A DNA stretch of 16,192 nucleotides from Actinomycetales bacterium (lineage in GTDB: Bacteria; Actinomycetota; Actinomycetes; Mycobacteriales; Mycobacteriaceae). The position numbers were made by a program, and so were the translations under genes. The first letter of the stretch is position 1; each line of letters begins with the position of its first letter. Shown here one piece after another: positions 399-10,065 of the stretch. The notes beneath the pieces are model-generated. The model had not been told where the DNA came from. It made no database searches and was given only the letters and a program-made list of their open reading frames with translations. The stretch covers positions 1 through 16,192 of the forward strand of contig DUOR01000412.1 in the NCBI GenBank assembly GCA_012838715.1, written 5' to 3'.

Positions 399-426
399 TT
401 GACACGTTTATGAATCAAAGTAAGCT
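399..426 (+). promoter_or_regulatory. Predicted promoter of the leader-dctPQM operon
   Basis: A perfect -35 hexamer TTGACA lies at 399-404 and a TAAGCT -10 at 421-426, with a 16-nt spacer. The expected transcription start is about 432-434. It sits in the only AT-rich part of the region, upstream of a strong Shine-Dalgarno at 481-485. The -10 is imperfect (TANAAT expected), so its exact register could shift by 1-2 nt. Confidence 0.65.
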
Positions 427-446: not shown

Positions 447-463
447 GTAGTCAACTACGCAAA
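447..463 (+). promoter_or_regulatory. Putative IclR-family operator upstream of dctP
   Basis: The sequence GTAGTCAACTACGCAAA contains a perfect inverted repeat (GTAGT-CA-ACTAC, 447-458). It matches the iclR/acyl-CoA dehydrogenase intergenic site at 5374-5390 in all 12 bases of GTAG-N5-TACGCAAA, with the same 5-nt spacer. Further copies of CTACG at 425-429 and 435-439 are phased 10 and 20 bp before the copy at 455-459. The site lies just downstream of the predicted start of transcription, as for a roadblock repressor. Assignment to the local IclR protein is inference from gene neighbourhood. Confidence 0.55.
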
Positions 464-492
464 CCCGTAAAAGGGTGGCTGGAGGTGCAGGC

Positions 493-582
493 GTGAAAAT
501 GGGATTCCCGAGGAAGGCGACCGCCGCTGCGGTGGCGTCGCTTCCCCTCGCCGGAAACCCGGGTCAGTGGGGCCCGGCATGA
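493..582 (+). CDS. 29-codon leader ORF overlapping the dctP start
   Basis: The frame starts with GTG at 493 (or ATG at 499) and ends with TGA at 580-582. It overlaps the dctP ATG at 579-581 as ATGA. It has the best Shine-Dalgarno in the region, GGAGG at 481-485, 7 nt before the GTG, while the dctP ATG itself has only a weak GTGGGG. The peptide begins VKMGFPRKATAAAVASLPL, short, basic then hydrophobic, rather like a truncated signal peptide. The likely role is to deliver ribosomes to dctP by translational coupling. Alternatives are a regulatory leader peptide or a decayed N-terminus. No known family is recognised. Confidence 0.5.
   Translation: MKMGFPRKATAAAVASLPLAGNPGQWGPA
550..578 (+). promoter_or_regulatory. 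Alternative hairpins sequestering the dctP ribosome-binding region
   Basis: Two mutually exclusive stems can form before the ATG at 579. GCCGG (550-554) can pair with CCGGC (574-578), or CCGGG (559-563) with CCCGG (573-577), the second with the weak GTGGGG Shine-Dalgarno in its 9-nt loop. Both lie inside the leader ORF, so a translating ribosome would melt them. Function is inferred from geometry only. Confidence 0.35.
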
Positions 583-1655
583 CGGTAAACAACAAGCGAC
601 GGGCGGCCATCGGCGCCGCCCTCGTCGCACTGGCAATCGGCGCCGCGGGCTGCTCCGCGGAAGGCAGCGGCCATGACGACGGGATGCTCATCATGGGCGA
701 CAGCTTCTCGCTGACCCACCCGATCGGCAGGGGCGGCACCGAGCAGTTCATCGAGGGACTGCAGGAACAGGGCCCGGACGTCGGGCTCGGCCTGGAGTAC
801 TACGCCTCCGGCCAGCTCGGCAAGCAGTGGGACATGCCCACCGTCGTCCGCACGGGCGTCGCCGACATCTCCGTGGTGTCGCCGTCCTACGTGTCGTCGG
901 AGATGCCCCTGTCGTCCGTGGGCGACCTGCCGGGCCTGGTGCAGGATTCCTGCCAGGCCGGCTACGCCCTGATGGAGCTGATGTCCGAGGGCGGCATCCT
1001 CTACGAGGAGGAGTTCGAGCCGCTGAACCTGCGTCCCCTGTGGGTCGGCGTCATCCCCGCGTACGAGGCCATGACGGCCGGCCGCGAGGTCACGGTCCCC
1101 GATGACCTGCGCGGCACCGTGCAGCGTTCCACCGGCGGCGCCCAGGACCGCATCGTCGACGCGGTCGGCGCGGCGGGCGTCGGCATGCCCATCGGCGACC
1201 TCTACGAGGCGCTGACCCGCGGCACCGTGGAAGGCACCGTCGCGTCCCCCGTGTCGATTACGCCGTACGGCCTCGAGGAGGTCATCCACTACTCGACCCG
1301 CGGCGCCAACCTCGGTTCCTTCACCACGGTGTACGTCATCAACAACGACACCTGGAACGAGCTTTCCGACGAGCAGCGCGAGCTGATCACCGGCCTGGCC
1401 GAGGAATCGCACCAGAGCGTGTGCGAGGAGCTCAACAAGTCCGTCGGCGAGTCCTACGACGCGATGGAGGAGTCGGGCGTCCAGTTCAGCGACATCTCCG
1501 GCAACGCCGACGAGTGGGAGGCCCTGCTGGAGCCGACCCGCCAGGGCTGGGTCCGCGACCTCGAGTCGATGGGCCGCCCCGCCGGCCGGGTGCTGGAGGA
1601 GTTCCAGCGCGCCCTGGCCGAGAACGAGGACCGGATCGAGAGTGATCTGCCGTGA
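579..1655 (+). CDS. dctP: TRAP transporter substrate-binding lipoprotein (DctP family)
   Basis: This is the extracytoplasmic solute receptor of a tripartite ATP-independent periplasmic (TRAP) transporter, which drives organic-acid uptake with an ion gradient. The 358-aa product starts at ATG 579, which gives a clean lipoprotein signal: NNKRR, a hydrophobic stretch, then GAAGC with Cys25 as the lipidated residue. The GTG at 567 would only add residues before it. Family features include SLTHP near residue 45, YYASGQLGKQWDM around 74-86, and DLRGTVQRST where Arg183 aligns with the carboxylate-binding Arg of DctP/SiaP proteins. The gene is entered from the leader ORF by an ATGA overlap and leaves to dctQ by a GTGA overlap. 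The ligand is most likely a carboxylate; its identity cannot be read from sequence. Confidence 0.92.
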   Translation: MTVNNKRRAAIGAALVALAIGAAGCSAEGSGHDDGMLIMGDSFSLTHPIGRGGTEQFIEGLQEQGPDVGLGLEYYASGQLGKQWDMPTVVRTGVADISVVSPSYVSSEMPLSSVGDLPGLVQDSCQAGYALMELMSEGGILYEEEFEPLNLRPLWVGVIPAYEAMTAGREVTVPDDLRGTVQRSTGGAQDRIVDAVGAAGVGMPIGDLYEALTRGTVEGTVASPVSITPYGLEEVIHYSTRGANLGSFTTVYVINNDTWNELSDEQRELITGLAEESHQSVCEELNKSVGESYDAMEESGVQFSDISGNADEWEALLEPTRQGWVRDLESMGRPAGRVLEEFQRALAENEDRIESDLP

Positions 1656-2308
1656 CCGGGTCATCCGCGAAAAAAGCGTCCGTGAACATGAAGTCCACGA
1701 ACAAGACCATCGTCCATCCGGGGCATGACGGCATCGGCAAGCGCACGACCTTCGGGTTCGTGACCAACGACTACCCGATGCTGCACAAGCTCCAAAATTT
1801 CCTCTCGGGCGTCTGCGCCGTCATCGCGGCCGCGGCCGTGGTCATCAGTGGCGTGCTGACGGTCATCGAGGTGTTCATGCGTGCGGTGCTGCAGTCGCCG
1901 CTGGGCTGGAACATCGGTTTCTCCGAGCGCTACCTGATGGTGGCCATCGCCTTCTTCGGCCTGGTCACCGCGTACCGCACCGGTTCGCACATCGCCGTGG
2001 CGTCGCTGTTCGGCAAGTTTCCGCCGGTGGTGCAGAAGCTGCTGATGCTGCTGGCGCAGGTGATCATCTTCATCACCTTCCTGCTGCTGTTCCTCGCGGG
2101 CGTGGAGGCGACGTCGTTCTCCATCTCCATCGGGGAGCGCGTGCCGCCGGGCATGGCCGACATCCCGTGGGCCAGCTGGACCTGGAGGGTCATGATCCCG
2201 GTCGCCGCGTTCATGGGCCTCATCGTCTCCGGCATCGACATTTTCCGCGAGCTCACCACCAAGTGGGATCGCTCTTACACGGACTACGAGCCGGGGGAGG
2301 CGCACTGA
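1652..2308 (+). CDS. dctQ: TRAP transporter small membrane subunit (DctQ)
   Basis: This is the small integral-membrane component that pairs with DctM and helps couple the binding protein to the translocation channel. Four hydrophobic segments lie near residues 50-72, 93-110, 130-151 and 178-198. The DctQ signature is visible as TVIEVFMR, then a Trp, SERYLM and TGSHIAV. The chosen start is GTG 1652, overlapping the dctP stop by 4 nt. It gives 218 aa with a hydrophilic N-terminus of about 48 residues, longer than typical for DctQ. Downstream candidates are ATG 1688 and ATG 1778 (residue 43), but none has a clear Shine-Dalgarno, so coupling from dctP favours 1652. Confidence 0.88.
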   Translation: MTGSSAKKASVNMKSTNKTIVHPGHDGIGKRTTFGFVTNDYPMLHKLQNFLSGVCAVIAAAAVVISGVLTVIEVFMRAVLQSPLGWNIGFSERYLMVAIAFFGLVTAYRTGSHIAVASLFGKFPPVVQKLLMLLAQVIIFITFLLLFLAGVEATSFSISIGERVPPGMADIPWASWTWRVMIPVAAFMGLIVSGIDIFRELTTKWDRSYTDYEPGEAH

Positions 2309-2309
2309 C

Positions 2310-3593
2310 ATGTTGCTCGCAAGCATCATCATCCTGCTGATCGTCCTGATCATGCTGAGGGTGCCCGTTTCATTCGTCATTTTCGCGACGGGCATCCTGG
2401 GCCTCCTGGCCATGGGCGGTTTGGACCTGGTCCTCCCGGTCATGGAAACGGCGCCGGCCACCGCGGTCCGCAGTACCTCGCTGACGGCCATCCCGCTGTT
2501 CATGCTCATGGCGCAGTTCATGCTCATGTCCGGCCTGCTCGATTCGCTTTTCGACGCCGCCCGCGGCCTCGTCGGCCGCATGCCGGGCGGTACGGGCATC
2601 GCCTCCATCGGCGCCGGCACGGCGTTCGCGGCGGTATCGGGTTCCTCGACGGCCGCGGCCGCGACCCTGGCGCAGACGTCGACGACCCGCATGCTCCGCG
2701 AGGGCTACCGCCCCGACGTGGCCTCCGGCCTCGTGGCGTCGGTGGGCACCCTGGCGGCCATGATTCCGCCGTCCATCATCCTGGTGTTCTACGCCATCAC
2801 GGCGGAAGCGTCGGTCGGCGATGTCCTCATCGCCGGCTTCTTCCCGGGCATCCTCATCGCCTGCGCGATGGCGCTGACCATGTACCTGGGCATGATGCGC
2901 AACCGGGATTCCATCCCGATGGGCACGCGTTCCTCGATGAAGGACAAGCTCAGGTACCTGGGCCAGGCGTCCCCGCTGCTCATCGTGTTCCTCGCGGTCG
3001 TCGGCTCCATCTTCCTGGGCGTCGCCACCCCGACGGAGGCCGCCGCCCTGGGCGCGTTCGCCGCACTGTTCCTGGTCGTCGTCCGCGGCAGGTTCACCAT
3101 GCTCGGCATGGGCCGCTGCCTGGTCGAGACCGTGAAGTCGACGGCCATGATTCTGGCCATCATCATGTCGGCGCACGTGCTGGGCCACTTCCTCACGGAG
3201 ACCCGCGCGGCCCCGCGCCTGGTCACCGCCATCGAGAACTCGGCGCTGCCGGTGCTGGTCATCATGGCCCTCATCGCGGTGTTCTACGTGGTGCTCGGCT
3301 TCTTCATGGACCAGATCGCCATCATCGCGCTGACGGTGCCCATCGTCCTGCCGGTCGTGGTGGGCCTGGGCTACGACCCGGTGTGGTTCGGCATCTTCAT
3401 GGTGCTGCTGGCCGAGGTCGGCATGGTGACGCCGCCAATGGGCATCAACGTGTTCGTGGTGTCGAAATCCGCGAACATGGCGCCGATGACGGTGTTCAAG
3501 GGAGCGTTCCCGTACGTGGTGGCCATGCTGGTCATGGCGGCCATCTTCCTCCTGTGGCCGGACCTGGTCATGTGGGTGCCCAACCTGATGTAG
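2310..3593 (+). CDS. dctM: TRAP transporter large membrane subunit (DctM)
   Basis: This is the channel-forming subunit that moves the substrate with a cation gradient. It has 427 aa, the usual length for an unfused DctM, and is hydrophobic throughout with roughly a dozen membrane segments. Family motifs include LTAIPLFMLMAQFMLMSG, GAGTAFAAVSGSSTAAAA and GTLAAMIPPSIILVFYA in the first half, and a matching IIALTVPIVLPV and VGMVTPPMGINVF in the second half, reflecting the internal repeat of the fold. The ATG is 1 nt after the dctQ stop, with a strong Shine-Dalgarno GGGGGAGG at 2293-2300. The next gene follows after 89 nt containing repeats at 3621-3667. Confidence 0.95.
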   Translation: MLLASIIILLIVLIMLRVPVSFVIFATGILGLLAMGGLDLVLPVMETAPATAVRSTSLTAIPLFMLMAQFMLMSGLLDSLFDAARGLVGRMPGGTGIASIGAGTAFAAVSGSSTAAAATLAQTSTTRMLREGYRPDVASGLVASVGTLAAMIPPSIILVFYAITAEASVGDVLIAGFFPGILIACAMALTMYLGMMRNRDSIPMGTRSSMKDKLRYLGQASPLLIVFLAVVGSIFLGVATPTEAAALGAFAALFLVVVRGRFTMLGMGRCLVETVKSTAMILAIIMSAHVLGHFLTETRAAPRLVTAIENSALPVLVIMALIAVFYVVLGFFMDQIAIIALTVPIVLPVVVGLGYDPVWFGIFMVLLAEVGMVTPPMGINVFVVSKSANMAPMTVFKGAFPYVVAMLVMAAIFLLWPDLVMWVPNLM

Positions 3594-3620
3594 GCGGCCG
3601 AGTTCGGCCATCATTGAAGC

Positions 3621-3667
3621 TTGACCCCGTTTGACCCCGTTTTCCACTTGTTTTCCTTTGACCCCCG
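3621..3667 (+). repeat. TTGACCCC repeats between dctM and the crotonase gene
   Basis: TTGACCCCGT occurs twice in perfect tandem (3621-3630 and 3631-3640), and a third copy, TTGACCCCCG, lies at 3658-3667 beside the Shine-Dalgarno. The region around them is T-rich. They could be protein-binding sites, a slippage product, or TTGACC -35-like elements, but no good -10 lies at a proper distance. A GGCCG/CGGCC hairpin at 3596-3609 without a T-run precedes them. Confidence 0.6.
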
Positions 3668-3682
3668 GAAAGGGACTTGGCA

Positions 3683-4504
<822 letters not shown>

Positions 4505-4541
4505 GAACGCGTCGCCTCCGGCGATTTTCGGACAATGTGCA

Positions 4542-4580
4542 CCGCCCACCCGGGTCATCCGGGTGGGCGGGTCCGTGTTT
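4542..4580 (+). terminator. Terminator between the convergent crotonase and iclR genes
   Basis: CCGCCCACCCGG (4542-4553) and CCGGGTGGGCGG (4559-4570) form a perfect 12-bp stem with a 5-nt loop, followed by GTCCGTGTTTT. It sits between the crotonase stop (4504) and the end of iclR (4589). The T-run favours plus-strand termination; the stem could also slow minus-strand transcription leaving iclR. Confidence 0.75.
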
Positions 4581-4588
4581 TCGGGGCG

Positions 4589-5308
4589 CTATGCCCAGTT
4601 GCGGCGGTGCCGCTTCAGCACGTCGACGAGTTCGTCGCGGCGGGAGGAGATTTCCTCGTGCGAGCCGATGACGCCGACGGCGGCGACGATGTGGCCGTCC
4701 TGCTCCACGCCGATGGAGACGCCGTCGACGCCCTTTTCGGCGACGGCGGGGGAGGCGCAGATGCCGGTGGCGGCGATGTCCTCGACGGCGGCGAGGAAGG
4801 CCTCGACGTACTCCTGTTGATCGGCCGGGCGGTTCCTCAGGTAGGACCACAGGTCGCGCTTGTCCATGCCGGCGAGCAGGACCCATCCGGAGGAGGTGCG
4901 CAGCAGGGAGCGCGGCAGGAAGTTCTCGGTGAGGTACTGGTACGACATTCCCTCGGCCGCGGAGTGGAGGTAGAAGACGCGCTCGTCGACGGCGATGGAG
5001 AGCACGGTGATGAGGCCGGTCTCCTCCGAGATTTCGTCGATTTCGGCCTGCGTCACCAGTTCGATGGGGCGGCGGCCGGCCATCGCGTTGATGAGGTAGG
5101 GCGCCATGCCGAGCGTGTAGCGCTTGTTGCGCTCGTCGAGGTAGCCGGTGGCGGCGAGCCCGTTGACCAGTCCCTGGGTGGTGCTCAGCGGATAGCCGAG
5201 GTTCTGGGAGATGTCGGTCAGGGTCAGCCCGTTGGATCGGGCGACGAGCTCGAGGATTGCCGCAACGCGGTCGACCATGCGGTGCCGCGGCCGGGTGGAC
5301 TCTGTCAT
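4589..5308 (-). CDS. IclR-family transcriptional regulator
   Basis: This is a likely substrate-responsive regulator of the flanking TRAP/crotonase and dehydrogenase/CoA-transferase operons. Using ATG at 5308 the protein has 239 aa, normal for IclR proteins. An open extension to 5425 is rejected because it would run through the divergent promoter. The N-terminal winged helix-turn-helix spans about residues 14-67 (VDRVAAILELVARSNGLTL, then ISQNLGYPLSTTQGLVNGL, then the wing RYTLG). The rest is the IclR effector domain, with ITVLSIAVDERVFYLHSA and, near the end, GVDGVSIGVEQDGHIVAAVG. GAGG lies only 2 nt before the ATG, a tight spacing; ATG 5278 is a poorer alternative. It is divergent from the dehydrogenase operon and convergent with the crotonase gene. 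The effector is unknown. Confidence 0.92.
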   Translation of the reverse strand: MTESTRPRHRMVDRVAAILELVARSNGLTLTDISQNLGYPLSTTQGLVNGLAATGYLDERNKRYTLGMAPYLINAMAGRRPIELVTQAEIDEISEETGLITVLSIAVDERVFYLHSAAEGMSYQYLTENFLPRSLLRTSSGWVLLAGMDKRDLWSYLRNRPADQQEYVEAFLAAVEDIAATGICASPAVAEKGVDGVSIGVEQDGHIVAAVGVIGSHEEISSRRDELVDVLKRHRRNWA

Positions 5309-5351
5309 GGCCTCAAGACTAGCAATCCGACCTGGGGAAAAGGCGAAACGC

Positions 5352-5365
5352 GAAGAATTTTCTTC
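5352..5365. promoter_or_regulatory. 14-bp palindrome in the iclR leader region
   Basis: GAAGAA-TT-TTCTTC is a perfect inverted repeat, 44 nt upstream of the iclR start. Its centre (5358.5) is 21 bp from the centre of the GCGTA...TACGC repeat (5379.5), about two helical turns, so both lie on the same DNA face. It may be a second operator or part of the iclR promoter; no clear minus-strand -35/-10 pair was found. Confidence 0.4.
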
Positions 5366-5371
5366 CAAATG

Positions 5372-5390
5372 GCGTAGGGGGTTACGCAAA
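5372..5390. promoter_or_regulatory. Putative IclR-family operator at the divergent promoters
   Basis: GCGTA (5372-5376) and TACGC (5383-5387) form a perfect inverted repeat with a 6-nt centre. From 5374 the sequence GTAG-GGGGT-TACGCAAA repeats the motif found upstream of dctP at 447-463, identical at all 12 non-spacer positions. It overlaps the predicted -35 of the dehydrogenase operon and is placed to control iclR too. The binding protein is inferred to be the adjacent IclR regulator. Confidence 0.6.
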
Positions 5391-5410
5391 TGGGGATTAT
5401 GCGGTATGTT
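5382..5410 (+). promoter_or_regulatory. Predicted promoter of the acyl-CoA dehydrogenase operon
   Basis: A weak -35 TTACGC (5382-5387) and a -10 TATGTT (5405-5410) are separated by exactly 17 nt, giving a start near 5417. The -35 lies inside the putative operator, and the GlxR-like site covers the start. A poor -35 under an operator is a common arrangement for regulated promoters. Confidence 0.5.
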
Positions 5411-5426
5411 TGTGACCACGGTCACC
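5411..5426. promoter_or_regulatory. Candidate GlxR/CRP-type site at the dehydrogenase operon start
   Basis: TGTGACCACGGTCACC contains the perfect palindrome GTGACC-AC-GGTCAC (5412-5425). It fits TGTGA-N6-TCACA at 9 of 10 arm positions, though the centre is AC rather than TA. It lies directly after the -10 box, where binding would block initiation. GlxR as the binder is inferred from the consensus. Confidence 0.5.
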
Positions 5427-5443: not shown

Positions 5444-6571
5444 ATGAAGCAGGAGTCACCGGAGCTGCGGGAACTGCGGCTCGACGTCCGCCGGTTCCTG
5501 GCGGAGAAGATTGCGGAGGGCAGGTTCGAGCCGAGCATCGACACCTGGCTGACGAAGTGGGACGAGGAGTTCACCAAGGAACTCGCGCAGCAGGGTTGGG
5601 TCGGCATGACCATCCCGAAGGAGTACGGGGGACACGGCCGCACGTTCATCGAGCGGTTCGTCGTCACCGAGGAGCTGCTGGCCGTGGGCGCGCCCGTCGC
5701 CGCCCAGTGGGTCGCCGACCGCCAGATCGCGCCGTCGCTGCTGGCGCACGGCACGGAGGAGCAGAAGAAGGAGTACCTGCCCCGCATCGCGGCCGGCGAG
5801 TCCTGCTTCGCCATCGGCATGAGCGAGCCGGACTCCGGTTCGGACCTGGCGTCGGTGCGCACGCGCGCCGTGCAGGTCGACGGCGGCTGGAAGGTCACCG
5901 GCACCAAGGTGTGGACCTCCGGCGCCCAGTACTCGGAGGCGTTCTTCTGCCTGGCCCGCACGGAGCCGGTGGACACCTCGAACCGCCACGCCGGCCTGTC
6001 GCAGTTCCTGCTGGACCTGCGCAGCGAGGGCGTCACCATCCGTCCGATCGAGTCGATGTCGGGTTCCCGCCACTTCTCCGAGGTCATCCTGGACGAGGTC
6101 TTCGTCCCCGACGAGATGGTCTTCGGCGAGATCGGCGAGGGCTGGAAGCAGGTCAATTCGGAGCTGGCGTTCGAGCGTTCGGGCCCGGAGCGGTTCCTGT
6201 CCTCGTTCCGCCTGTTCGCCGAGGCCGTCAGCCCGTCGTCCGGCAACGAGGCCGTCCTCGACGAGGCCACCGCCGGCCGTTGGGCCGCCCGTCTGGCCGC
6301 GCTGCACGGCCTGTCCCGCTCGGTCGCGGAGACGCTGCAGTCCGGCGGCAAGGCCGATGTGCCGGCGTCGCTGGTGAAGGTGCTGGGCACCACCACCGAG
6401 GGCGACATCGTCGACGTGGTCGACGCCGCCGTCGGTGACGAACTCACCCACGATCCCGCGGTCCTGGCGCTGCTGCGCGCCGGGGTCGTCCAGCGCCCCG
6501 GCTTCACGCTGCGGGGCGGTACCAACGAGATTCTGCGCGGCGTCATCGCGCGGGGACTGGAGCTGCGCTGA
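5444..6571 (+). CDS. Acyl-CoA dehydrogenase, probable catalytic subunit
   Basis: This flavoprotein introduces the alpha,beta double bond in an acyl-CoA. Start ATG 5444 has AGGAG at 5434-5438; an in-frame ATG at 5390 lies in the promoter and is rejected. The 375-aa protein shows the helical N-terminal domain, the middle-domain FAD/substrate motif CFAIGMSEPDSGSDLASVRT (121-140), KVTGTKVWTSGA (150-161), and the C-terminal FTLRGGTNEILRGVIARG (354-371). LAFERSGPERF puts Glu244 where isovaleryl-CoA and long-chain dehydrogenases carry the catalytic base, so this is probably the active chain. Substrate is unknown. It is the first gene of the divergent operon and overlaps the next dehydrogenase by one base. 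Confidence 0.92.
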   Translation: MKQESPELRELRLDVRRFLAEKIAEGRFEPSIDTWLTKWDEEFTKELAQQGWVGMTIPKEYGGHGRTFIERFVVTEELLAVGAPVAAQWVADRQIAPSLLAHGTEEQKKEYLPRIAAGESCFAIGMSEPDSGSDLASVRTRAVQVDGGWKVTGTKVWTSGAQYSEAFFCLARTEPVDTSNRHAGLSQFLLDLRSEGVTIRPIESMSGSRHFSEVILDEVFVPDEMVFGEIGEGWKQVNSELAFERSGPERFLSSFRLFAEAVSPSSGNEAVLDEATAGRWAARLAALHGLSRSVAETLQSGGKADVPASLVKVLGTTTEGDIVDVVDAAVGDELTHDPAVLALLRAGVVQRPGFTLRGGTNEILRGVIARGLELR

Positions 6572-7617
6572 TGAGCATCATCGACACCACCGTTGACAAG
6601 GAACTGATCGATCTCGTCGACTCGGTGTTCGGCCAGGCGGCCGACTCGGGCGAGGATTTCCGCTCCGTGTGGGGCACCCTGACCGAGCTGGGCCTGGCCC
6701 GTCTGACGGGCTCGGAGGAGTCCGGCGGTTCGGGCGCCGGTTGGGGCGAGGCGGCGGCGCTGCTGTCGGGCGCCGCGGGCAAGGGCGTGCCCATGCCGTA
6801 CGTGGAGTCCGACCTCCTGGCGGGTTGGCTGCTGGAGCAGGTCGGCCTGCCGGTCGACGAGTCCGTCCGTTCGGTCGCCATCGTCGACGCCGAGGGCCGT
6901 GGCCAGCGCGTCGCGTGGGCCCGTGAGGCCGATTCCCTGGTCGTCGTCGCCCCGCGCGGCGAGGGCTGGGCGGTCGCCGACGTGCCGGCGTCCGACGTCA
7001 CCGTCACCGATTACCCGACGCTGGGCCGCGAGCCGCGCGCCAACGTCGAGGTCCCCGCGTCGGCGCTGGCCGACGCCAAGGACCTGTCCGCCGAACAGAT
7101 GGACGCGTTCTACCTGCGCGGCGCCCTGGCCCGCAGCCTGCAGACGGTCGCCGCCCTGGAGACCGCCGCGGATCTGGCCAAGGAGTACGTGGTCACCCGC
7201 CACCAGTTCGGCCGTCCGCTGGCGAAGTTCCAGTCGGTGCAGAACCTCATCGTCGACGCGGTCGCCGAGGCGACGCTGGCGCGTTCCGCCGTCGACGAGG
7301 CGCTTTCCGACGCGCTGGAGCACGACCTGGCCGGTCCCGACAGCGTGTTCCGCGTCGCGGTCGCCAAGTCGGTCGTCGGCCGCGCCGCGTCCGTCGTGGT
7401 GCGCAACACGCACCAGGCGCTGGGCGCCATCGGCACCACCGAGGAGCACTCGCTGCACCGCTACACCAATGCCGCGCTGACCTGGCGCTCCGAGTTCGGC
7501 TCGGTGCGTTCCTGGGAGGAGGCCTTCGGCGCCGCCGCGGCCGCCGGCTCCGTCGACGACGTGTGGGCGTTCGTCGTGGGCGCCGGCCCGGTGACCGCCC
7601 CGGCCGTGTCCCGCTAG
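6571..7617 (+). CDS. Acyl-CoA dehydrogenase-like partner subunit
   Basis: The 348-aa product is a second, divergent acyl-CoA dehydrogenase chain; its ATG overlaps the preceding stop as TGATG. The middle domain is degenerate: the SEPxxGSD motif and a recognisable catalytic Glu are missing. The C-terminal domain keeps the FAD-contacting TRHQFGRPLAKFQSVQ (209-224) and HQALGAIGTTEEHSLHRYTN (281-300). Adjacent unequal dehydrogenase genes of this kind encode alpha2beta2 enzymes in actinobacteria (for example the steroid side-chain FadE/ChsE pairs), where each chain supplies part of the flavin site. Here chain one would provide the base and chain two the RxQF segment. Complex formation is inferred from this complementarity and the coupling. 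Confidence 0.85.
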   Translation: MSIIDTTVDKELIDLVDSVFGQAADSGEDFRSVWGTLTELGLARLTGSEESGGSGAGWGEAAALLSGAAGKGVPMPYVESDLLAGWLLEQVGLPVDESVRSVAIVDAEGRGQRVAWAREADSLVVVAPRGEGWAVADVPASDVTVTDYPTLGREPRANVEVPASALADAKDLSAEQMDAFYLRGALARSLQTVAALETAADLAKEYVVTRHQFGRPLAKFQSVQNLIVDAVAEATLARSAVDEALSDALEHDLAGPDSVFRVAVAKSVVGRAASVVVRNTHQALGAIGTTEEHSLHRYTNAALTWRSEFGSVRSWEEAFGAAAAAGSVDDVWAFVVGAGPVTAPAVSR

Positions 7618-7624
7618 GACCCGC

Positions 7625-8845
7625 ATGGCCTTCACGCTGAAACCACTGCCCCTGATGTTCGCATCGGGGGTGTTGGTGCATGGGGCGTATGACGCGGTCC
7701 GTGTGCTGGTGTCGTACCGGGTGATCAACCTGGGCGGCGGTGGCGCGGAGGTGGGCCTGGTGGCGGCGACGTTCGCCCTGGTGCCCCTGTTGCTGGCGCT
7801 GCGCATCGGCCGGTGGGTCGACGGGCACGGCAGTTGGGGCGTCATGGTGGTCGGTGGCGTCCTGAGCCTCATCGCGTGCGTCGGCGTGCTGTTCAGTCCG
7901 ACGCTGCTGTTGCTCGGCCTGGCCAACGCCTTGCTGGGCCTGGGGCAGGTGATGACCTTTCTGGCGGGTCAGGGCGTGATCATGGAGAACTCCCCGCCGG
8001 AGAAGTTCGTCAATGGTTTCGCCCTGTTCTCGCTGTCCGTGGCGGTGGGCCAGTCCATCGGCACGCCGCTCGTCGGCGTGCTCGTGGAGATTCGCCGTGC
8101 GGGTGGCCCCGCGGGCATCGTGGACGTCGATCTCGCGATGATGGCGATGGTCGTCGCCGTGGCGCTGGCCCTGCCCCTGATGCTCCTCCTGCCCCGGCTG
8201 CAGGGCGGCGACGGGCGGGCGCAGTCGTCCCGGCCGAAGCCGGACATGCTGGGCATCGCCCGCATCCACGGCATGCCGGCGGCGGTGTACGCCAGCTTGG
8301 TGGTGCTCACGGGCATCGACCTCATCACGGCGTACCTGCCGGTGGTGGGCGAGCATTACGGCATCGCCCCGCTGACGGTGACGTTGCTGGTCGCCCTGCG
8401 GTCGGTGTTCTCCATGCTGTCGCGGGCGGGCATGCCGCTGCTGATGCGCATCGCGTCCGGCCCGACGCTGTTGACGGCGGCGCTGGCGGTGTCGACGCCG
8501 GCCATCATCGCGGCGGCCTTCACGGGCAACACGCTGCTGCTGGCGGTGCTGATGGCCGTCGTCGGCTTCTGCTGGGGCATGAGCCAGCCGCTGTCCATGA
8601 ATTGGGTCGCCATCCTGGTCGACCCGTCCATCCGCGCGTCGGCGCTGTCGCTGCGCTTGACGGGCAATCGTTTGGCGCAGGTCGCGGTGCCCGCGCTGGC
8701 GGGTTCGCTGACCGGGACGTTCGGTCCCGGCGCGGTTTTCGTCACGTCCGGTTTGCTGACGGGCACCGCCGCGGTGTCCACCCGAATCTTCTTCAAGGAA
8801 AAGCCCGGGGAGCCCGAGGGCCCCGGGGAAAGGAATGAATCATGA
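7625..8845 (+). CDS. Major facilitator superfamily transporter
   Basis: This 406-aa polytopic membrane protein has about 12 hydrophobic segments in two halves, separated by a hydrophilic loop near residues 192-215. ALRIGRWVDGHGSWGVMVVGG (about 59-79) is the MFS motif A region between segments 2 and 3. ATG 7625 lies 7 nt after the dehydrogenase stop, with AGGA at 7617-7620 as a short Shine-Dalgarno. The gene overlaps the CoA-transferase by ATGA. Being inside the catabolic operon, it may import the same or a related acid, or export a product. The C-terminus is charged and Pro/Gly-rich. By eye it uses more G-ending codons and T in wobble positions than its neighbours, perhaps due to its hydrophobic composition. 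Substrate unknown. Confidence 0.88.
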   Translation: MAFTLKPLPLMFASGVLVHGAYDAVRVLVSYRVINLGGGGAEVGLVAATFALVPLLLALRIGRWVDGHGSWGVMVVGGVLSLIACVGVLFSPTLLLLGLANALLGLGQVMTFLAGQGVIMENSPPEKFVNGFALFSLSVAVGQSIGTPLVGVLVEIRRAGGPAGIVDVDLAMMAMVVAVALALPLMLLLPRLQGGDGRAQSSRPKPDMLGIARIHGMPAAVYASLVVLTGIDLITAYLPVVGEHYGIAPLTVTLLVALRSVFSMLSRAGMPLLMRIASGPTLLTAALAVSTPAIIAAAFTGNTLLLAVLMAVVGFCWGMSQPLSMNWVAILVDPSIRASALSLRLTGNRLAQVAVPALAGSLTGTFGPGAVFVTSGLLTGTAAVSTRIFFKEKPGEPEGPGERNES

Positions 8846-10065
8846 CGTCTTCGCTCGAGGGAATCCGGGTGGTCGACATTTCGCGCGTGCTGGCGGGCCC
8901 GATGTGCGGGCAGATGCTGGCCGACCATGGCGCGGAGGTGTTCAAGGTCGAGCCGCCGACCGGTGACGAGACCCGTTTCTGGGGCCCGCCGTTCGTCCGC
9001 GAGAACCAGAGCGCCTACTTCACCGGCCTCAACCGCAACAAGAAGAACATCTCCCTGGATCTCCGCACGGAGGCCGGGCAGGCCGTGCTGCGCCGGATGC
9101 TTGCCGACGCCGACGTGCTCATCGAGAACTTCAAGGCCGGCACCCTGGCCAAGTGGGGTCTGTCCGATGAGGTCCTGCGCGAGGAGTTCCCGCGCCTGGT
9201 GCATTGCCGCATCACGGGTTACGGCACCGACGGCCCGTTGGGCGGGGCGCCCGGCTACGACGCCGTCATCCAGGCCAACTCGGGCCTGATGAGCATCAAC
9301 GGCGAGGCCGACGGCCCGGAGATGCGCATCGGAATCCCGCTTGTCGACATCGTCACCAGCCTCAACGGTCTGGCCGGCATCCTCATGGCGCTGCGCGCCC
9401 GCGAGACCACGGGCCGCGGCCAGCTGCTGGACATGGCGCTGCTCGACTCGGCCCTGGCCATCCTGCACCCGCACGCGTACACCTACCTGGCCTCCGGCCG
9501 GGATCCGGTGCGCACCGGCGTCGCCCACCCGACCATCTCCCCGTACGAGACCTTCCAGGCCGCCGACGGCCCGTTCTTCCTGGGCGTGGGCAACGACAAC
9601 CAGTTCCGCAAGGCGATCCGCGTCCTGCACGCGGAGAAGGAGCTGTCGGGCCCGGAGTTCGAGACGAACCCGTCGCGCGTCGCCAACCGCCTGGAGCTGC
9701 GGGCGAAGCTGGGCGAGCTCATCGGCCAGTGGAACCGCGACGATCTCGCCGCCGCGATGATCGAGGCGGGCGTCCCGGCCGGCCCGGTGAACCAGGTCAG
9801 CGAGGCGCTCGCCGCCCCGCAGGTCCGCCACCGCGACATGGTCGTCGAACTGGACGACTACACCGGCATCGGCCTGCCCATCAAGCTGACCGAGACCCCG
9901 GGCGCCGTGAAGTTCGGCCCGCGCAGCCGTGGCCAGGACAACCGCGAGATTCTCGCCCACTTCGGTTTCACCGAGGAGGAGGCCGAGCGATTGGAGGCGG
10001 ACGGCATCGTCAGCGCCCACGAGCAGGTCGAGACCCCCTGGCCCGCGGATAAGCCCAGGGCATGA
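8842..10065 (+). CDS. Class III CoA-transferase (CaiB/BaiF family)
   Basis: This family moves CoA between carboxylic acids through an aspartyl-CoA intermediate, here most likely activating the imported acid. The 407-aa length matches the family. The N-terminus LEGIRVVDISRVLAGP and GAEVFKVEPP is characteristic, followed by NRNKKNISLDLRTEAG and ADVLIENFKAGTLAKWGL. The nucleophilic aspartate is Asp169 in GIPLVDIVTSLNGLAGIL, the same number as in formyl-CoA transferase. The C-terminal part carries AGVPAGPVNQVSEALAAPQV. The start is supported by GGGGAAAGGA (8825-8834) and an ATGA overlap with the MFS gene. No acyl-CoA ligase is present nearby, so this is the only visible activation enzyme. CoA donor and acceptor are not identifiable. 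Confidence 0.93.
   Translation: MTSSLEGIRVVDISRVLAGPMCGQMLADHGAEVFKVEPPTGDETRFWGPPFVRENQSAYFTGLNRNKKNISLDLRTEAGQAVLRRMLADADVLIENFKAGTLAKWGLSDEVLREEFPRLVHCRITGYGTDGPLGGAPGYDAVIQANSGLMSINGEADGPEMRIGIPLVDIVTSLNGLAGILMALRARETTGRGQLLDMALLDSALAILHPHAYTYLASGRDPVRTGVAHPTISPYETFQAADGPFFLGVGNDNQFRKAIRVLHAEKELSGPEFETNPSRVANRLELRAKLGELIGQWNRDDLAAAMIEAGVPAGPVNQVSEALAAPQVRHRDMVVELDDYTGIGLPIKLTETPGAVKFGPRSRGQDNREILAHFGFTEEEAERLEADGIVSAHEQVETPWPADKPRA

Follow-up and report, generated by a model that had tools for sequence, protein, structure and literature searches.

Tandem palindromes as predicted operators of a local IclR-family regulator at an uptake promoter and a breakdown promoter of a Mycobacteriaceae genome

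Do the uptake genes and the acyl-CoA dehydrogenase genes that flank an IclR-family regulator in a Mycobacteriaceae genome answer to that one regulator? The window, i.e., the whole stretch of 16,192 nucleotides analyzed here (contig DUOR01000412.1 of assembly GCA_012838715.1, Actinomycetales bacterium), carries TRAP transporter genes with a crotonase gene (dctPQM-ech), the regulator gene iclR, and a set of genes beginning with two dehydrogenase subunits (acd1 and acd2). An earlier note on this DNA had pointed to a 17-mer, GTAG-N5-TACGCAAA, before dctP and again between iclR and acd1, and had read it as the operator of the regulator. Both copies are exact and on the forward strand, at 447 to 463 (GTAGTCAACTACGCAAA) and at 5374 to 5390 (GTAGGGGGTTACGCAAA), and there is no further exact copy in the window; they were placed by pattern match and by the palindrome models described below. 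The last spacer base is indeed a pyrimidine in both (one C, one T), and the inverted repeats that had been named are present (GTAGT-CA-ACTAC at 447 to 458 and GCGTA-N6-TACGC at 5372 to 5387). From comparison with related genomes, we propose that the functional unit is instead a pair of tandem palindromes at each promoter, and that the local IclR regulator, which is more likely a repressor than an activator, probably binds these pairs as its operators and would thereby govern the uptake and breakdown operons together.

The intergenic regions of relatives have in common a 16-bp palindrome with the consensus TTACGTATATACGTAA (YTAC-N8-GTAR), often found in tandem with centers 20 bp apart. The window has two predicted pairs of these unstranded sites. 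Those of the TRAP promoter lie at 435 to 450 (CTACGCATTCAGGTAG) and, with its center 20 bp away, at 455 to 470 (CTACGCAAACCCGTAA). Those of the iclR/acd region lie at 5362 to 5377 (CTTCCAAATGGCGTAG, with a degenerate left arm; TTACAAAATGCCGTAA in the close relative G179) and at 5382 to 5397 (TTACGCAAATGGGGAT, with a degenerate right arm). Read against this pattern, the 17-mer is a junction, in which a 4-bp linker joins the first palindrome's right arm to the left arm of its partner. We rejected it as the natural unit, the conserved units being the 16-bp palindromes that flank its middle; its position had been given exactly, its edges are not those of the conserved unit, and the inverted repeats noted with it differ from the conserved palindromes. 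A reading of a third box in relatives, 12 bp rather than 4 bp after the first palindrome, was also dropped, the same letters being the right arm of the second palindrome at 20 bp. At the TRAP promoter of the window all four tandem arms are good, hence three or more boxes. The TRAP palindromes of the window and of G179 are of middling strength, and several relatives pair a strong palindrome with a weak one.

The conservation was measured with palindromic models, each of which learned from upstream regions with one genus set aside and was then run over the whole loci of that genus; the starting consensus had been chosen after all loci had been viewed. The 38 loci comprise 34 stretches of 20 kb (shorter at contig ends), the 3.7-kb L022 and L023, one Mycolicibacterium parafortuitum locus, and the window. 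Nine of the 10 leave-one-genus-out models have the consensus TTACGTATATACGTAA and the tenth has TTACGTAATTACGTAA. With these models, 27 of the 38 loci have their top-ranked site in the 350 bp upstream of iclR, and in 36 a site there is among the top three. The model made without the window's genus places positions 455, 5382, and 435 at ranks 1, 2, and 3 among the 16,177 window positions, i.e., three of the four palindromes. A model of 23 hand-listed sites, several of them from distant members of the window's genus (G138, G286, and G292) and none from G000 or G179, ranks 455, 435, and 5382 first to third, with 5362, taken alone, in 17th place. Scored at the 20-bp spacing with the 23-site model, the two window tandems come first and second, as do the two orthologous tandems of G179. 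Alignments with G179, the regulator of which is 80% identical, show that the arms at both tandems are largely kept, with C/T changes.

By itself the 17-mer, though correct as observed, is not beyond chance. The two intergenic regions, 314 and 135 bp long, were compared on both strands, and their likeness is not significant against dinucleotide shuffles of both: an identity of 12 of 17 is reached somewhere in 148 of 150 shuffles, an exact run of 8 bp in 121, and both in 120, identity and run not being required within one 17-mer. Five 17-mers with up to three mismatches are seen in the window versus 2.9 expected, and at least five are found in 32 of 200 shuffles. A genome scan had been proposed in the earlier note as a check. 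In the whole assembly (2.38 Mb, 87.7% complete, with the window as its contig C320), the pattern with up to one mismatch matches at the two known places only, and its backward-read control also has two matches, so that the rarity of the 17-mer proves little. The backward control of the tandem pattern with two mismatches, counted per strand, is the higher one (2 versus 1 in G000 and 5 versus 3 in G179), and genome-wide counts were thus rejected as proof. A 28-base composite pattern matched only the two sites, with a control count of 0; it had been fitted to both. The shuffles and the backward control of the 17-mer would suit a chance likeness of two short intergenic regions, which we nevertheless regard as extremely improbable: a model free of the window's genus finds three of the four palindromes as its top three, and the orthologous G179 promoters keep them. 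The feature is counted as real because it is conserved in relatives, where the site recurs beside iclR orthologues.

The spacing within the pairs is likewise recurrent. Among spacings of 16 to 30 bp, 20 bp scores best in the window (28.4) and in G179 (30.9, followed by 28 bp with 18.8). In averages over two groups, 26 sites on the iclR side and 10 on the TRAP/ech side, a partner at +20 bp scores best each time; the offsets -8 and +8, which stem from the self-palindromic arms, are close behind. These averages use hand-set weights and 26 of the 38 iclR loci (omitting L041, L042, L043, L046, L048, L053, L054, L059, L062, L065, L022, and L023); for L060 and L061, the site at 91 was taken in place of the one at 46 with the top score, and the window and L034 were anchored on the second palindrome. 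The TRAP-side partner takes the form TTCC...GGA in six relatives. In most of these it overlaps an apparent ribosome-binding site, giving a second possible cause of its conservation.

Orthologues of the regulator were recovered at 37 places in 33 of 301 genomes, including the window's own (protein search, E <= 1.1e-55); nine further genomes have distant matches only. The order ech-iclR-acd1-acd2 is common among the loci, often with caiB, major facilitator superfamily (MFS), and TRAP genes. The presence of TRAP genes in relatives rests on dctQ and dctM, or on reading of the DNA for L034, L036, L038, and L046, and dctP is assumed from position in L064 and L067. The site precedes TRAP or crotonase genes in 14 loci, namely, the 10 compared dctP/ech sites and L041, L042, L043, and L054, where it stands about 50 bp before ech. 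It is also kept where the divergent neighbor of iclR is not acd1 but a CoA-transferase gene whose product is 25 to 28% identical to that of caiB (L044, L045, L047, L049, L050, and L053); L048 has a similar layout, and there the site test fails. In L035, from genome G033, an iclR 66% identical to that of the window still adjoins the site without the cluster: a search of this genome gives no dctM match at E <= 1e-30, and no other cluster gene is found in the 20-kb locus. The regulator of L035 thus stands apart from any such cluster and has kept its site; the gene sits among apparent trehalose genes, judged from N termini alone. Loci of two larger-genome genera have an extra copy of the site upstream of an aldehyde dehydrogenase or flavin monooxygenase gene, in G238 at 148 kb from iclR. 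The aldehyde dehydrogenase call is by Pfam in L053 and by N-terminal likeness only in L049 and L106 (G238), and the monooxygenase of L056 was called by Pfam. As a separate observation, L037 around 8768 to 9053 has an operator and an apparent dctP start followed by ech within about 300 bp, as though TRAP genes had been deleted.

Counts across genomes bear on whether the palindrome belongs to this regulator. In 28 of the 33 orthologue-bearing genomes (G176, G190, G195, G204, and G234 being omitted), the 16-mer with up to two mismatches occurs 15 times, versus once for its backward control. Ten of these occurrences are within 1.2 kb of iclR, one is at a TRAP promoter, three precede aldehyde dehydrogenase-like genes, and one, in contig 9 of G033, lies inside an open reading frame and is unaccounted for. 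In the survey of 301 genomes, a near-consensus palindrome is present in 12 of the 33 with an orthologue versus 23 of the 268 without one. These 23 genomes weigh against our interpretation, and similar palindromes are presumably used elsewhere too or are there by chance. They would suit the alternative that the palindrome is read by a different transcription factor that merely adjoins iclR, as would the separate site in some of the same promoters that we take to be CRP/GlxR-like. We consider such a factor improbable, as the palindrome tracks iclR through changes of neighbors and stays in the cluster-less L035. The IclR family is, moreover, known to use sites of such spacing, as described in a survey by Suvorova and Gelfand (PMC8222616). 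Beside these counts stand two observations of similar palindromes. Three genomes of the same genus without a regulator match at E <= 1e-20 (G159, G189, and G233) have a common 16-mer variant, GTACGCATATACGTAA, which may be used by another regulator there. In G082 (C1:1816653) and G244 (C35:96680), near-consensus palindromes lie about 8 kb from distant IclR relatives.

That 2021 survey, which spans 181 orthologous groups, provides the nearest precedents found here (PMC8222616). In it, the inner bases of group 1 IclR sites number 11 or 12, tandem sites are described for 94 orthologous groups at distances of 18 to 22 bp, and PcaU is among the examples of three-box sites. With its 12-base inner spacing, the consensus palindrome is reminiscent of the NGT-12-ACN subgroup of group 1, from which it differs in its arms (YTAC/GTAR here and GTYC/GRAC in the subgroup). 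The 20-bp distance between centers at both window promoters, the acd palindromes being weak, is within the range of the tandem group 1 operators (PMC8222616). A small regulon beside the regulator is also a common trait, and DctPQM is named among its co-regulated transporters (PMC8222616). Among the Table 1 entries compared, the most similar site is that of HmgR of Pseudomonas putida, ATTACGTTATTCGTAAT, which resembles the site here in its TTACG...CGTAA arms and in an additional external half-site; it differs in an inner spacing of 5 rather than 6, and the HmgR pathway is that of homogentisate, the likeness being one of sites (PMC8222616). The window TRAP promoter also resembles the three-box operators of PcaU and PobR, which govern 4-hydroxybenzoate/protocatechuate use, in having a palindrome and a further box at helical spacing (PMC8222616). 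Unlike in those systems, acd has two good inner arms only, and the regulator is far below the PcaR/PcaU/PobR cutoff. No paper naming this regulator was found by title or abstract start in the open-license PMC literature.

The placement of the sites relative to the predicted promoters bears on the sign of control. The putative TRAP operon promoter has a -35 element TTGACA at 399 to 404 and a -10 element TAAGCT at 421 to 426 (both on the forward strand, 16-bp spacer); TTGAC is kept and the -10 element is identical in the G179 orthologue. The TRAP palindromes span about +2 to +38 relative to the start predicted from these elements. By eye, 8 of the 10 TRAP/ech promoters compared have a TTGAC -35 element before the palindrome and the palindrome downstream of the -10 element; in L064 and L067 no TTGAC -35 element was seen. 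The putative acd promoter, read from the sequence, has a -35-like TTACGC at 5382 to 5387, inside the second palindrome, and a -10-like TATGTT at 5405 to 5410 (both on the forward strand); TTACGC-N17-TATGTT corresponds to TTACGT-N17-TACTGT in G179. A repressor appears more likely because both TRAP palindromes are downstream of the -10 element, and the site positions at TRAP and acd seem to fit a repressor better than an activator.

An activator in the style of PcaU and PobR, with the same operator and regulator, would have the tandem upstream of and over the acd -35 element recruit RNA polymerase with ligand. The best NCBIfam match of the regulator is to that very subfamily, far below the cutoff; the acd palindromes are centered near -47 and -27 from the predicted start, a position open to activators; and the acd -35 hexamers are poor (TTACGC and TTGCGT). 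We nonetheless hold an activator to be rather unlikely, since in the 8 of 10 TRAP/ech promoters the palindromes lie downstream of the -10 element beside a good TTGAC, where activation is hard. By eye, the distance of the site from the acd -35 element also seems to differ by about 8 bp between genera, which speaks against activation and is awkward for a repressor too.

For repression, we infer binding, the sign of control, the ligand, the -35 and -10 positions, and the transcript extents as follows. The regulator encoded at 4592 to 5308 would bind the palindromes, probably from a single face of the DNA and as either a tetramer or a pair of dimers, the 20-bp spacing of centers being about two helical turns. 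At the TRAP promoter, the protein bound just downstream of the -10 element would block initiation or escape, and at the acd promoter the second palindrome would cover the -35 element. Both dctPQM-ech and acd1-acd2-MFS-caiB would most likely be repressed jointly until a ligand, which may be the carboxylate taken up or the CoA ester of it, releases the regulator.

Several further observations count against the operator assignment. At acd the operator is weak, with two good arms only, the inner ones; and every 16-mer in the window differs from the consensus TTACGTATATACGTAA at more than four positions. Sixteen of the 28 genomes, including the window's own and G179, have no consensus match with up to two mismatches. 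In the window, the next-best spacing, 27 bp, scores 24.2. Two of the 38 loci fail the ranking, L048 with rank 29 and L065 with rank 19, the top-ranked site of the latter being 1.1 kb upstream; in L060 to L062, the best-scoring "upstream" match runs across the iclR start codon, with third rank for the site in its customary place. The 38 loci are not independent, identical or almost identical upstream sequences being shared within L042/L043, L036/L037, L049-L051/L053/L022/L023, L055/L056/L058/L059, and L060-L062, and L022, L023, and L041 are short, so that a high rank comes more easily. Autorepression is not evident either: if iclR is leaderless, the tandem lies upstream of its -35 element. In the window (5309 to 5321) and in orthologous loci, a TA-N3-T element is seen by eye 6 to 7 bases before the iclR ATG (19 of the 35 loci compared), which suggests a leaderless iclR transcript. 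Weighed with these points, the tie of both operons to the local IclR regulator, which the earlier note had put forward, is supported by the comparison (36 of the 38 loci with the site in the top three, 14 with it before TRAP or crotonase genes, and its retention in L035); what did not stand is the 17-mer as the operator itself and two copies alone as a signal beyond chance.

The genes of the window were called with Pfam and NCBIfam profiles. On the forward strand, dctP (solute-binding protein; 579 to 1655, ATG start) matches PF03480 at 1.1e-27 on the frame from an upstream GTG at 567; dctQ (small permease; 1652 to 2308) matches PF04290 at 3.5e-20; and dctM (large permease; 2310 to 3593) matches PF06808 at 4.3e-84 and TIGR00786 with 287.1 bits (cutoff 268.45). 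They are followed by the crotonase/enoyl-CoA hydratase gene ech (3683 to 4504; PF00378, 7e-58; NF006699, 421.7 bits, cutoff 354). The reverse strand carries iclR (4592 to 5308), the domains of which were scored on a longer frame from 5425. Its product has an N-terminal IclR helix-turn-helix domain (PF09339, 2.6e-11; 43.6 bits, cutoff 22) and a C-terminal effector domain barely above the cutoff (PF01614, 24.2 bits versus 24). It is below the PcaR/PcaU/PobR cutoff (TIGR02431, 49.1 bits versus 284.75), which is still its best NCBIfam match. Among solved structures it matched two distinct sequences, the best at 7.7e-07 being a Pca regulon protein. Downstream, again on the forward strand, are acd1 (5444 to 6571; PF02771, 1.2e-25, and PF02770, 1.5e-18, on the frame from an upstream ATG at 5390), the dehydrogenase-like second subunit acd2 (6571 to 7617; PF00441, 1e-15), an MFS transporter gene (7625 to 8845; PF07690, 1.1e-32), and the family III (CaiB) CoA-transferase gene caiB (8842 to 10065; PF02515, 1.7e-121).

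None of the NCBIfam equivalog models able to name a substrate reaches its cutoff for the window cluster proteins. The nearest models, succinate-glutarate CoA-transferase for CaiB (373.4 bits versus a cutoff of 750) and the pimeloyl-CoA dehydrogenase large subunit for Acd1 (159.9 bits versus 623.85), are both matched well below cutoff, and naming the substrate was given up, these models being a hint only. Matches to solved structures (46 for DctP and 35 for CaiB) settle nothing on this point. The hint points to a carboxylic acid, possibly a dicarboxylate that derives from alicyclic compounds. The CoA-transferase, two-subunit dehydrogenase, and crotonase could serve to activate a carboxylic acid and degrade it by beta-oxidation, and the monooxygenase, hydrolase, and aldehyde dehydrogenase of the larger genomes would suit a ring-opening route feeding such an acid.

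Two further elements of these promoters were observed. GTGA-N6-TCAC, the CRP/GlxR-like site mentioned above, occurs at 5412 to 5425 of the window and in L034, L036, L037, L038, L046, L052, and L063; it has 21 exact matches in 659 kb of 35 loci, 9 of which are in operator-bearing promoters (3 at iclR/acd, in the window, L034, and L046, and 6 at TRAP, in L036, L037, L038, L046, L052, and L063). This suggests catabolite control added on top. A short open frame at 493 to 582 of the window (29 codons) and another at 5651 to 5704 of L034 (17 codons) end across or beside the dctP start, with no evident mutual likeness, and are possible leaders for coupled translation.

On a wider scale, we regard as evenly balanced the proposition of a family-wide IclR regulon, in which one regulator and one palindrome would control a short carboxylic-acid degradation module (family III CoA-transferase, two-subunit acyl-CoA dehydrogenase, and crotonase). 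No description of a regulon of this kind was found in the open-license PMC literature. The entries to the module would differ by lineage, being TRAP uptake mostly in smaller genomes and a flavin monooxygenase (perhaps of the Baeyer-Villiger type) with an aldehyde dehydrogenase and a hydrolase in larger genomes. The operator would have moved with each promoter and in the window's lineage would be spread over two weaker tandem palindromes. As a point of method, a two-copy motif that was statistically worthless by itself proved real after comparison with relatives. For the biology of these organisms, an uncharacterized IclR regulator gains a testable predicted operator, a two-promoter regulon here, and a comparative regulon in relatives, and one neighboring regulator very probably controls both the uptake system and the enzymes that would degrade the imported compound.

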